Origin: Bacillota bacterium
GTDB taxonomy: Bacteria > Bacillota > Sulfobacillia > Sulfobacillales > Sulfobacillaceae
Length of the DNA: 64,000 bases
Reading direction: 5' to 3'
NCBI GenBank assembly: GCA_023475835.1
Contig: JAMCVM010000133.1
Coordinates: 1-64,000 of the forward strand
The first letter of the stretch is position 1; the number at the start of each line of letters is the position of its first letter. Positions 5,517 through 12,700 of this stretch are shown in pieces. Position numbers and translations under genes: made by a program. The notes under the pieces were generated by a model. The model ran no database searches. It saw only the letters and a program-made list of their open reading frames with translations, and was not told where the DNA came from.

Positions 5517-6037
5517 GTGTGCTAGATTTTAGAGCGGTCGATTCATCCTGCCAAGGGAGTATACTCTGCATATCCCACTTTGGATCTAGTCCGCACGGCC
5601 AAGGTGCGATACGGGGTATAAGCGCCGAGCTTCATACCCAATCAGTGGTGTTGGCAAAATCGGCGATGGTTCAGTATAGAGGCTTCTTACGAGGAGCGCA
5701 GCTTACCAGATTAACTGCAGCCCCTGTCGGGTGCGCGTCTACTCCGAGGGATGGCTGGGTAGGGAAAATCGTCGAGGTCGCCTGGGACCAGGCCGAAGAA
5801 TGAAAGGGGTCGTTAGCGAGGCGGGCTAGGCGACGAACTCGCCGACCATGGACACAACATGAGTCCCTGATCGGATCGATCCCCATGCACGCCGTTCAGG
5901 CCCATTGCAAGCTACTGAAGCGCACAAATCACGCACTTTGGGTTGTGCTCGGAATAAGATGCGGGCGCCCAAGACGATTTTGAACGCCTGATGGCGTGAG
6001 GTGAGCCACACGATAAGTGGAGGGCTACTTCTTGGCG
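5517..6037. other. Spacer, no gene recognised
   Basis: About 520 bp between the decayed UPF0158 gene and the end of the convergent deaminase gene. I see no ribosome site with a plausible frame, no clear hairpin and no recognisable protein remnant. Confidence 0.5.
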
Positions 6038-9191: not shown

Positions 9192-9428
9192 CTATTCGGA
9201 GCGAACGCCAAGGGCTCGATCCAGACGGGGTCGGTTAAAGCCGACGACGACGGTGCCGTTCACGTCAATGACCGGGACTCCGGTCTGACCTGACTTTCGC
9301 TTCATCGAGTTCAGCGCACTCTCATTTTTGGTGATGTCTAGCTCCTTAAAGGGAATTTTGCGCTCCTTCAAGTAGTGCTTGACCGTCCGGCAGTGCGGAC
9401 AGGTCGGAGTGGTATAGACTGTAACCAC
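9192..9428 (-). CDS. Glutaredoxin/NrdH-like thiol oxidoreductase
   Basis: A 78-residue thioredoxin-fold protein with active site Cys10-Pro-His-Cys13, the typical TYTTPTCPHC beginning, and the GVPVIDVNG cis-proline segment near residues 52-60. Length and layout match NrdH/glutaredoxin-like mini-redoxins. Such proteins reduce disulfides or carry persulfides; here its place at the end of a sulfur operon suggests persulfide or mixed-disulfide reduction (inference). I chose the GTG at 9428, which follows the upstream stop codon by one base (TAACGTG) and has AAGGAGG 12 nt before it. A longer frame from 9467 would overlap the preceding gene and add a basic tail absent from the family. It is the last gene of the minus-strand operon. 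Confidence 0.85.
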   Translation of the reverse strand: MVTVYTTPTCPHCRTVKHYLKERKIPFKELDITKNESALNSMKRKSGQTGVPVIDVNGTVVVGFNRPRLDRALGVRSE

Positions 9429-9429
9429 G

Positions 9430-9828
9430 TTAAATCGACGCCTCCTTGACTGCATCCCGTATGACATTGGCCACTTCCGTGGCTAATGGAGTTAAAGCTT
9501 CGTTGCCGATAAGGCCCAACATAACTTCGGGTTCTGGGAATCCAATGGTCGTTTGGCCACTTTGGCGATCTTCGTAGACGACAATTTTACAGGGAAGAAA
9601 GTAGCCAGACGATTGTTCCATGTGAAGCGCCTGTTTGGCCCGGGGAGCAGAGCACACTTCGAGCACATGAAACGGAGGTTCGGGCTCTAGGCCCTTTTCC
9701 ACCAGCTTTTGATTAAGGTCGAGATGCCATAAGACGCCGAATTGCCGTAAGGACAGCGCGCGCTCTAGATCATCGATGGCAGCTTCTACCGACTTCTCAG
9801 TGGTCACCCAATAGCGGGTGGATGGCAT
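9430..9828 (-). CDS. DUF302 domain protein
   Basis: A 132-residue protein matching DUF302: YWVTTEKSVEAAIDDLERAL at the N-terminus, a conserved FGVLWHLDLN, FHVLEVCSAPRAKQAL in the middle and GYFLPCKIVVYED later. DUF302 proteins are small alpha/beta proteins often encoded beside sulfur, heme or oxygen-stress genes; their activity is not established. The two conserved cysteines (in EVCSAP and LPCKI) are kept. It lies between the DUF156 repressor and the glutaredoxin in the same operon, which supports a role in thiol or persulfide stress. The start at 9828 is preceded by a GA-rich site (GAAGGAGAGAAG). Confidence 0.85.
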   Translation of the reverse strand: MPSTRYWVTTEKSVEAAIDDLERALSLRQFGVLWHLDLNQKLVEKGLEPEPPFHVLEVCSAPRAKQALHMEQSSGYFLPCKIVVYEDRQSGQTTIGFPEPEVMLGLIGNEALTPLATEVANVIRDAVKEASI

Positions 9829-9894: not shown

Positions 9895-10182
9895 TTAGGA
9901 TTGTCCGGCGACCGTGCGGTCAATAACCAGACGCACAGCGTCGAGATCCCAATTGGCGTCCGGGCTCAGGTGCATGATGTGTTCGGCGATGCCACAGGCT
10001 TCCACCATGCGCGCGACCTTAGCCAGAGCCCCTTGCACTGCGGAGACTTGAGTAAGAATATCGCGACACACGTCCTGGCGACTGACCATGGATTCGAGCC
10101 CGCGAATTTGACCCTCGATGCGGCGCAGACGACGCAGTAAATCCTCTTCTTTAAGATAGACCGGGGTGCTTTCCGAACTCAC
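9895..10182 (-). CDS. CsoR/CstR (DUF156) family transcriptional repressor, unusual ligand set
   Basis: A 95-residue all-helical DUF156 repressor with the family core RRLRRIEGQIRGLESMV and DVCRDILTQVSAVQGAL. The invariant cysteine is Cys39. Copper CsoR has His and Cys 25 and 29 residues further on, and persulfide-sensing CstR has a second Cys at +29. Here +25 is Gly64 and +29 is His68, while an extra cysteine sits at +24 (Cys63). This fits neither canonical set. Because every co-transcribed gene handles sulfane sulfur or thiols, a thiol/persulfide sensor using Cys39 and Cys63 is the likeliest role (inference). The GTG start at 10182 has AAGGAGGG with 6-nt spacing. The promoter at 12733-12761 carries a palindrome of the kind this family binds, so the operon is probably autoregulated. 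Confidence 0.88.
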   Translation of the reverse strand: MSSESTPVYLKEEDLLRRLRRIEGQIRGLESMVSRQDVCRDILTQVSAVQGALAKVARMVEACGIAEHIMHLSPDANWDLDAVRLVIDRTVAGQS

Positions 10183-10201: not shown

Positions 10202-10858
10202 CTAAGAACCACTCTTCAGCGCTTGATGGACGGCGTCCATCAGCGTTGCTTCTGGAGCAGCTCCGGTGACTCGTGCACTGCTGTTGACGACCGTCATGGG
10301 CACACCCATGACGTTAAATCGGGTCGATAAGCGTGAAAAGATGGTGCAATCAACCATATCTGCGATAACTCGGCGCGGGTTAACTCGCGCCATATCCTGA
10401 GCCAGGCGGACCGCCTGGGGACAATAGGGTCAGGTAGGGGTGACGAAGACTTCCAAATGCAGATCGTGGTCTAGATTTTTCAGCCACGACTGTGTTTCTT
10501 CGCTAATATGAGGCGCGAGACCTATCGAGAGCGATCGCACGGTGTCGACTAACCCCCCAAACTCATAGCCGCTGGGAATGCCCAGATAGCGAATTCCCGA
10601 AAATTCTCCGTCGAACCACACCTCAGAGATCGGGCCCTGTCTCTCGTTGTCGTGCTCGGGCAAAAACTGAGACAGCGGTGAGGCGATGTCTTGGATTTGG
10701 ACCAATCCGTTCAGCGCTTGCAACTCGTCCCACAGCGCTTTCATGGTTTCGTTAGCCGAGGCATCTCCCTCGCCGCCATAAAACCGGATCTCTACGGGAT
10801 CCTTCAAGTCTTGCCATAAGTCGCGAATTTCGTCTTGAACCTTGTCGGATAGGATCAT
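10202..10858 (-). CDS. Protein disulfide oxidoreductase-like selenoprotein, UGA-encoded Sec143 (UPYC)
   Basis: Two frames joined by a single in-frame TGA (10432-10430) give a 218-residue tandem thioredoxin-fold protein of the PDO/glutaredoxin-like type. The TGA falls exactly on the first active-site cysteine: the context is EVFVTPT-(TGA)-PYCPQAVRLA, where relatives have TPTCPYCP. Downstream the domain is complete, with Cys146 and the cis-proline segment NVMGVPMTVVN (Pro187). The N-terminal fold (1-115) lacks a CxxC, which is replaced by a GGEGDAS stretch. A hairpin beginning 11 nt after the UGA with a GGUC apical loop fits a bacterial SECIS. The simplest reading is a selenoprotein; the alternative is a nonsense mutation of TGT/TGC. 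It is the fourth gene of the persulfide operon and probably reduces disulfides, polysulfides or peroxides using the selenol (inference). Start ATG 10858 follows AGAAGG. Confidence 0.8.
10402..10418 (-). promoter_or_regulatory. Candidate bacterial SECIS hairpin
   Basis: In the mRNA the UGA is followed by 11 nt and then CCAGGC-GGUCC-GCCUGG, a perfect 6-bp stem that can extend to 7 bp. The apical loop contains GGUC. The E. coli fdhF SECIS also has 11 nt between UGA and the upper stem and a GGUCU loop that SelB binds. The element lies wholly in coding sequence, as bacterial SECIS elements do. Confidence 0.75.
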
Positions 10859-10889: not shown

Positions 10890-11513
10890 CTAATCGATCG
10901 ACCAACGATCGATAGGATGCCCTGCCCCGAGCCATAAGGCCATGCCGCCTAGAACACTGAAGGTCGTATAGCCGCGTTCTGCCAAAAAAGCGGCACCCGT
11001 CAGACTGCGATTGCCATGGGCGCAGACGACCACGTGTTGGCGATCCTTAGGTAGTTCCGCTAAGCGCTCACTCAGGGTGCCTAGAGGGATGGTTTTGGCC
11101 CCGGGGATGATGCCGCTTCGCCATTCATAAGGCTCGCGCACGTCAATTACGCTAAAAGCCTCAAGACGGTGAGCTAGTTCATCCACGGTCACGGGTTTCA
11201 CTTGAACGGTAGCTGCTCCGAGTTGTTTCCAAGGGCCGAGCCCTTGGTCCCAGACCGCGACGACAGTTCCACCAGCCTGTTCCCACGCCTCTTTTGCGGC
11301 CGTTCCGAGCCGCGGATTGTCGGTAAAGAGTACGACGGAAGGTTCGGTGATGGCCTGTCGCACCAGTGCCGCCCAGCCTTCTTGACGAAATGGCAGAGAC
11401 TGGCTGCCAGCAATGTGCTCTTCGGCAAATGCCCGAATCAATCGGATATCGATGACCGGGAACTGATTCGATTCGAGAATTGCTTTCAGATGTTCCACGG
11501 TCAGCGTCATCAT
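10890..11513 (-). CDS. Tandem-domain rhodanese (thiosulfate/persulfide sulfurtransferase)
   Basis: A 207-residue protein with two rhodanese domains. The C-terminal domain (about 110-205) is catalytic: it has FSVIDVREPYEW and the active-site loop CAHGNRS with Cys164. The N-terminal domain (1-100) keeps FPVIDIRL and HIAGSQSLPF but has LFTDNPRLG where the cysteine loop should be, so it is structural, as in many double rhodaneses. The enzyme moves sulfane sulfur between persulfides, glutathione- or bacillithiol-like thiols and thiosulfate. It lies between the persulfide-dioxygenase-like gene and the UGA-containing redoxin gene, with short gaps (52 and 31 nt), so it is part of the same transcript. 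Two ATG codons at 11513 and 11510 are both usable with GAGGGG upstream. Confidence 0.9.
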   Translation of the reverse strand: MMTLTVEHLKAILESNQFPVIDIRLIRAFAEEHIAGSQSLPFRQEGWAALVRQAITEPSVVLFTDNPRLGTAAKEAWEQAGGTVVAVWDQGLGPWKQLGAATVQVKPVTVDELAHRLEAFSVIDVREPYEWRSGIIPGAKTIPLGTLSERLAELPKDRQHVVVCAHGNRSLTGAAFLAERGYTTFSVLGGMALWLGAGHPIDRWSID

Positions 11514-11565: not shown

Positions 11566-12312
11566 TCATGCCGTCAAATTAGCAGTGCGAATCGACTCGG
11601 CCTCCTCAGGCGGGGGTTTTAAGTATCGTAGGGTTTCTTCGACAAAAATGTCGGGATCGCTCATGTGCACGAACGGATTAAACCGACGCTCATAACCGAT
11701 GGTGGACTGGGGTCTGCGATTCATGAAGATCCCCCCACATGGCGACGAACCGTAGTGCGCCGGCCAAAGTTCGGTCCAATCCGGAAGCGTCATCAATCGC
11801 TGGATGCTGTGATATTGGTCCAATGCGGCGAGTCGAACGGCAGTTTCGCCAGCGTCCACTAAATCCGGTCGGCCAACGTCGCCGACAAAAAGACTATCGC
11901 CGGTCAGGACCGCCCACGGATCTAACCCGCGAGCCAAGTCGTACAAAATTAAGGAGACACTATCTTTCGTATGCCCAGGGGTTTCCCAGACATCAATGGC
12001 CAGCGCTCCATAGTGCAGCCGCGTATCATCGGCAAGCGGAGTGAATGCAAACACGGCGGGCGCATGGCGACTGATTCGATACGGCACCGAAAGCTCTTTA
12101 GTCAAGTCCAGAGCGCAGGAGACGTGATCGGCGTGCACATGAGTTTCTAATACCTCGATAATTTGCATACCGAGGTCGTGAGCGGAAAGGATGTAGGCCT
12201 CTACTCCGACTTGAGCAAGGGGGTCGACAACGACGCCTTGGCCACTAATCTCGTCACCAATCAAGAACGAGTTACATCCCAGGGTGGGGTTTTGAATGAC
12301 CTTCCAGATCAT
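11566..12312 (-). CDS. Metallo-beta-lactamase-fold persulfide dioxygenase-like protein (ETHE1 group)
   Basis: A 248-residue metallo-beta-lactamase-fold protein related to glyoxalase II and ETHE1/persulfide dioxygenases. It has THVHADH (His58, His60, Asp62, His63), TPGHTKDS and GDSLFVGDVGRPDL, the last being characteristic of the ETHE1-like group, and a C-terminal HYGSS histidine. ETHE1 enzymes use one Fe(II) and oxygen to turn a glutathione-type persulfide into sulfite, which rhodanese can convert to thiosulfate. Its position between two rhodanese genes supports that role over lactoylglutathione hydrolysis. The start is the ATG at 12312 (AAGGAG about 9 nt upstream). The frame extends further 5' but would overlap the upstream rhodanese gene and add residues that are not family-like. 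Confidence 0.88.
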   Translation of the reverse strand: MIWKVIQNPTLGCNSFLIGDEISGQGVVVDPLAQVGVEAYILSAHDLGMQIIEVLETHVHADHVSCALDLTKELSVPYRISRHAPAVFAFTPLADDTRLHYGALAIDVWETPGHTKDSVSLILYDLARGLDPWAVLTGDSLFVGDVGRPDLVDAGETAVRLAALDQYHSIQRLMTLPDWTELWPAHYGSSPCGGIFMNRRPQSTIGYERRFNPFVHMSDPDIFVEETLRYLKPPPEEAESIRTANLTA

Positions 12313-12376: not shown

Positions 12377-12700
12377 CTAGTCGCCCTGGGCTTTGGGACC
12401 TGGCCATCTAGCCATTCCATGTTGAAGATTTTTGACACGGTATCCGGCATGCTGTAAGTGCCGAGCGGCTATCGTGCTTCGATTGCCGGAATGGCAAACT
12501 GTGATGACCTCTTGGTGTTTAGGAACTTCTGCCATGCGCGACATGAGTTCAGTGACCGGAATGAGAACCGCGCCAAAGATATGGCCTTGTCGAAATTCAG
12601 CTGGGGTGCGAACGTCCAGGATAAACGGGCGAGGACTTTCATTCAGTCGCTCCATTAATTGCGCCCCCGTGATTTCTTCAATTTTTGGAGCAGAGAACAA
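12377..12700 (-). CDS. Single-domain rhodanese
   Basis: A 107-residue rhodanese, first gene of the persulfide operon. It has FILDVRTPAEFRQGHI, the CHSGNRS active-site loop with Cys69, and the closing HAGYRVKNLQHGMARW motif common to small sulfurtransferases of the PspE/GlpE type. It probably passes sulfane sulfur to the downstream dioxygenase or double rhodanese (inference). Translation starts at TTG 12700, which has GGAGGTG 8 nt upstream; no ATG fits. The promoter and palindromic operator lie 33-61 bp upstream of this codon. Confidence 0.9.
   Translation of the reverse strand: MFSAPKIEEITGAQLMERLNESPRPFILDVRTPAEFRQGHIFGAVLIPVTELMSRMAEVPKHQEVITVCHSGNRSTIAARHLQHAGYRVKNLQHGMARWPGPKAQGD

Follow-up and report, generated by a model that had tools for sequence, protein, structure and literature searches.

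A very probable selenocysteine-containing member of the TIGR02187 protein disulfide oxidoreductase family in a persulfide-type gene cluster of a Sulfobacillaceae-like bacterium

Introduction

CstR-CstB of Staphylococcus aureus is an example of the persulfide detoxification operons of the cst/bigR type. The Blh operon is another (PMC5823870). Operons of this type bring a rhodanese, an ETHE1-type dioxygenase and a repressor together in one cluster.

Selenocysteine (Sec) members of the protein disulfide oxidoreductase (PDO) family TIGR02187 were reported in 2006 from Carboxydothermus hydrogenoformans and Symbiobacterium thermophilum (PMC1794560). The family is also listed as a selenoprotein, "homolog of AhpF N-terminal domain", with a UxxC motif (ABB15282.1; PMC13188914, PMC9312934). 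These three reports show that PDO-type selenoproteins have been described, against the novelty suggested by an earlier note on the DNA considered here, which knew of none in a persulfide operon. Formate dehydrogenases use Sec in all Sulfobacillus genomes studied (PMC4378227), and the Sec peroxiredoxin PrxU of Sulfobacillus thermotolerans was detected by proteomics (PMC7409299).

Here we describe a gene in the window (the whole stretch of 64,000 nucleotides that was analysed) from a Sulfobacillaceae-like lineage; among its named relatives are Sulfobacillus harzensis, S. thermotolerans and Sulfobacillus sp. The gene very probably codes for a working selenoprotein that belongs to the TIGR02187 family, and is a well-supported added member of a known selenoprotein family rather than the founder of a new one. 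Its cluster resembles the cst- and bigR-type operons in holding rhodanese, ETHE1-type dioxygenase and repressor genes. Unlike those operons, it has these functions on separate genes and has a CsoR-family repressor with different Cys spacing; it also adds the Sec PDO, a DUF302 protein and a glutaredoxin.

The UGA-containing gene and its relatives

When its single in-frame TGA (codon 143, context VTPT-U-PYCPQAV) is translated as U, the frame gives one continuous protein that ends at a TAG stop (Table 1). This agrees with the proposal of the earlier note that two adjacent frames are one frame split only by TGA. The TGA occupies the first Cys position of the TP-T-C/U-P-Y-C active site, as also proposed, and codon alignment with Cys orthologues places it opposite the redox Cys of the homologues. 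The U143-P-Y-C146 motif lies in the C-terminal thioredoxin unit and forms invariant columns in our alignment (A1). An ordinary gene caller would break up such a selenoprotein gene, calling its first part as a truncated gene and the rest as an orphan, an error that this reading corrects.

Table 1. Coordinates of the putative selenoprotein gene, its recoding elements and the neighbouring genes in the window.
Feature	Position	Strand	Remarks
Predicted Sec-containing protein disulfide oxidoreductase, TIGR02187 family, 218 aa, U143-P-Y-C146	10202..10858	(-)	
UGA codon, residue 143, predicted to be read as selenocysteine	10430..10432	(-)	TGA common to most best-scoring relatives; TGC/TGT in Cys orthologues
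bSECIS-type hairpin CCAGGC-GGUCC-GCCUGG	10402..10418	(-)	11 nt after UGA
Tandem rhodanese, 207 aa, upstream in operon	10890..11513	(-)	Pfam PF00581, two stretches; syntenic in relatives
Metallo-beta-lactamase-fold protein, putative ETHE1-type persulfide dioxygenase	11566..12312	(-)	PF00753
Single-domain rhodanese	12377..12700	(-)	PF00581
CsoR-family repressor, candidate persulfide/thiol sensor	9895..10182	(-)	PF02583; Cys pattern C...EAC
DUF302 protein	9430..9828	(-)	PF03625
YruB-type glutaredoxin, Cys form TPTCPHC	9192..9467	(-)	TIGR02196 over cut-off

A relative of the gene is encoded in 66 of the 101 genomes searched, and most best-scoring matches carry one TGA. Where the active-site codon was read directly, it is TGA in 27 of 30 fetched loci of this search and in 19 of 80 loci of a scan of named genomes, and TGC or TGT in the others; these proportions are not frequencies, because the scan used two patterns, of which one is biased towards Cys forms. 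The UGA form occurs in the cultured relatives S. thermotolerans Kr1 and S. harzensis DSM 109850, and also in two Anaerolineae. A maximum-likelihood tree with 97 rows requires at least five switches between Sec and Cys. Several orthologues terminate in TGA stops. Most of the conditions on which the earlier note would have given up its reading do not hold, the exception being selC and selD, which were not found in the draft assembly. The note's further statement that the downstream half is not decaying fits both the TGA common to most relatives and the comparison with a second genome of the same genus (G001), in which the codons after the UGA show one synonymous and no nonsynonymous difference.

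Between the window and G001, 1 of 75 codons differs after the UGA (10429-10202) and 20 of 142 before it. Conservation of the post-UGA DNA is stronger than the hairpin alone would require.

Protein family, gene neighbourhood and possible role

Residues 5-212 of the protein match positions 2-208 of the 209 positions of the NCBIfam TIGR02187 "PDO_seleno_TRX" profile (E 4.6e-51), and the protein shares with this family the two-unit fold and a UxxC motif at the C-terminal unit. Its score of 173.1 bits is below the curated cut-off of 185, as is that of a Symbiobacterium-type Sec relative (L191, 181 bits), and another Sec relative (L051) scores 205 bits. This cut-off is an annotation threshold, and homology of the window protein to the family is not in doubt. 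The archaeal and Aquifex PDOs of solved structure (PDB 1a8l, 1j08, 2ywm) are also homologues, with similarity that spans almost the entire protein (2e-26 for the archaeal 1a8l). In contrast to these proteins, the window protein has Sec in place of the first Cys of the C-terminal unit and lacks the N-terminal CxxC. No CxxC occurs before residue 143, so the two-site PDO arrangement, with CxxC in both units, is not present. In the first two sets of orthologues, the N-terminal CxxC is absent from 44 of 46 UGA forms and present in 58 of 64 Cys forms.

The genome of L191, which may be that of Symbiobacterium thermophilum, resembles the window in having a UGA orthologue with an identical 17-nt hairpin (CCAGGCGGUCCGCCUGG) and without N-terminal CxxC. 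It differs in that persulfide-type neighbours were not seen within the 5.5 kb examined. Since this member also lacks the N-terminal CxxC, we gave up the idea that only Sulfobacillales have lost it.

The operon order is rhodanese, ETHE1-type metallo-beta-lactamase protein, tandem rhodanese, Sec PDO, CsoR-family repressor, DUF302 protein and glutaredoxin. The ETHE1-type assignment comes from context and a weak match to Blh, with NF040641 and TIGR03413 matches below cut-off. Genes for ETHE1-type, rhodanese, CsoR, DUF302 and glutaredoxin proteins recur around the UGA-PDO in Sulfobacillales, and neighbours of the persulfide type are rare around Cys orthologues elsewhere; many of the loci compared are short. 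A literature search, with most subscription papers outside its reach, found no published report linking a Sec PDO to a persulfide operon. The recurrent linkage in Sulfobacillales of a TIGR02187 selenoprotein to a persulfide cluster with an often Sec-containing glutaredoxin looks undescribed.

The glutaredoxin of the YruB type is a Cys form in the window and in a sister genus (g4), and a Sec form (UPHC) in L031, L037, L044, L050, L052 and L053, among others; switches between the two forms have occurred among close relatives. The CsoR-family repressor has an unusual Cys pattern, C...VEAC or C...LEAC, which is common to relatives with the cluster (L026, L027, L031) and differs from that of the Chloroflexota CsoR proteins in the comparison set. 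The sensing chemistry is possibly different.

It is from the gene neighbourhood alone that we infer a persulfide role for the Sec PDO. An active site remains in the C-terminal unit only, and the U143-C146 pair would perform the reduction chemistry. This pair may reduce disulfides or persulfides that the rhodanese, persulfide dioxygenase and CsoR-type proteins encoded nearby make or sense, with electrons supplied by a flavoprotein resembling thioredoxin reductase. Disulfide or persulfide reduction with electrons from such a flavoprotein is a tentative assignment that we place just short of an even call. If the operon link is functional, selenium use would be tied to persulfide handling in relatives of sulfur-oxidising acidophiles.

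Sec could also be inserted into a protein whose task is general thiol or peroxide defence, as an AhpF-like electron donor to a peroxiredoxin. The AhpF N-terminal domain is a homologue of the family, and orthologues outside Sulfobacillales, many Sec members among them, mostly lack the persulfide cluster. Within Sulfobacillales, however, the gene recurs beside the persulfide-type genes listed above. We regard this antioxidant role as quite possible, and nearly as likely as the persulfide role. Somewhat less probable is the most specific form of the persulfide role, in which the Sulfobacillales protein would be a dedicated selenium-based persulfide reductase that has lost its N-terminal dithiol site, is encoded in a persulfide operon and acts with the Sec glutaredoxin. 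If this holds, selenium would be part of sulfane-sulfur detoxification.

The hairpin downstream of the UGA

The bSECIS model specifies a stem of 4-16 bp, a loop of 3-9 nt with G in its first two positions, a spacing of 16-37 nt and an energy of at most -7.5 kcal/mol (PMC13188914). In the window, the arms (10418-10413 and 10407-10402) form a perfect stem of 6 bp, or 7 bp with a closing G-C pair. The loop GGUCC (10412-10408) begins 17 nt after the UGA and has G in its first two positions. The energy is -11.2 kcal/mol, versus a mean of -2.7 kcal/mol when that protein stretch is recoded 300 times with synonymous codons (p=0.03). The hairpin described in the earlier note, starting 11 nt after the UGA, was recovered, and it exceeds chance.

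Among orthologues, the hairpin averages -9.5 kcal/mol in 35 distinct UGA genes (-3.6 kcal/mol when shuffled) and -3.0 kcal/mol in 63 Cys genes (-2.3 kcal/mol when shuffled). The threshold of -7.5 kcal/mol is passed by 33 of the 35 UGA genes and by 5 of the 63 Cys genes; the earlier note had proposed to check whether the hairpin is conserved only with UGA, and most Cys orthologues lack it. When each gene is compared with synonymous recodings of the protein that it encodes, the average z is -2.03 for UGA genes and -0.28 for Cys genes. Hairpin strength separates Sec from Cys genes (Mann-Whitney p 7e-11, for sequences that are not independent); because the sequences are related, all p-values for the hairpin are indicative only.

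Third codon positions were compared in 40 distinct UGA genes with a hairpin of fixed register, excluding six UGA loci where it is shifted or different. The four codons of the stem show an entropy of 0.17-0.50 bits there, and those in the loop or outside one of 0.93-1.79 bits. The stem codons are CCC (37 of the 40 genes), CAG or CGG (39), CGC (37) and CTG (37), and the third position varies at the loop codons GCN and GTN and at the flanking CCN, TAY, TGY and GCN. One compensatory change, from G-C to C-G, is seen at pair 17-27. The two Anaerolineae UGA orthologues have an unrelated 6-bp stem, GCGAGC/GCUCGC, at the equivalent place. Judged from these alignments, the hairpin is under selection, and the frozen third positions of the stem are the clearest sign of it. 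From its anatomy and the comparative evidence, SelB carrying Sec-tRNA would bind the hairpin just 3' of the UGA and insert Sec.

Selenocysteine machinery

In the window's own draft genome (246 contigs, 96.6% complete), there are genes for SelA (552 bits) and for a SelB that is full-length and includes its two winged-helix domains; searches for selC and selD found neither. Thus, of the four genes that the earlier note had advised searching for, selA and selB are in the genome, and selC and selD, missing from the draft, are both present in G001.

The best match to the selD model in the draft is a 336-aa ThiL-like frame beside tsaE/tsaB-like genes and the second is a 777-aa frame of PurL size; neither is SelD. 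Matches to tRNA-Sec checked with ARAGORN are other tRNAs, mainly Ser, Leu and Tyr. One selC-like fragment of 71 bp (G000:C200:23793-23863; L189 about 5790-5870, minus strand) is 85% identical to the 3' part of the same-genus tRNA-Sec. The match covers only the part between the anticodon loop and the 3' end, the 5' half is broken and the fragment is not called by ARAGORN or Rfam, so it provides no working tRNA-Sec; it has the look of an attachment site or relic derived from selC.

G001 shares the TGA and the hairpin with the window, and it has a tRNA-Sec (71.7 bits) and a SelD that itself contains a UGA. Over the selA, selB and PDO regions, the two genomes show 96-97% identity. The SelD of G001 lies in a block syntenic with a sister genus (G010), with 69% protein identity, the same divergence as for the PDO. 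The 12.5-kb selD and 10-kb selC regions of G001 find only short, mostly repeat-like matches in the window's draft. Because the whole neighbourhoods of both genes are apparently missing from the assembly, their absence points to missing contigs, without proving it.

Absence of selC and selD from the draft favours a real stop, with TGA marking a nonsense-mutated pseudogene with a decaying downstream half, or an assembly error. However, an independent assembly and most relatives have the identical TGA, the downstream region is almost unchanged in G001, and the hairpin is retained through frozen synonymous sites. We consider this explanation very improbable.

SelA accompanies the UGA-PDO in 55 of 58 genomes and a non-UGA PDO in 3 of 8 (Fisher 3e-4; 66 genomes), with the TGA position confirmed at the active-site codon for the fetched loci only. 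One of the non-UGA genomes (G065) was counted without its stop column shown; when it is excluded, p=0.0016. The nearest Cys orthologues belong to the sister genus g4 (G004, G013), in which we found neither selC nor any selA, selB or selD match over the cut-off, and their hairpins are weakened to -5.2 and -4.4 kcal/mol. This amounts to a natural experiment, in which relatives without detectable Sec machinery have a Cys codon in place of the UGA and a hairpin that is weakened.

Decoding of the UGA as another residue, whether by suppression with Cys or Trp or under a reassigned code, would suit the many orthologues with Cys at the active-site position, but it deserves hardly any credence given that the UGA-PDO tracks SelA presence, that a SECIS-type hairpin is present, and that read-through is limited to one codon while several orthologues use TGA as their end stop. 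The selenoprotein reading, already that of the earlier note, is supported by a UGA and a bSECIS-type hairpin that are both conserved, by the presence of selA and selB in the genome, and by the Cys orthologues of relatives that lack the Sec system.

SelD matches over the cut-off occur in 30 of 34 genomes of the window's family (e.g., L054-L065), and every one has one in-frame TGA. Thus, SelD in this family appears to be a selenoprotein itself.
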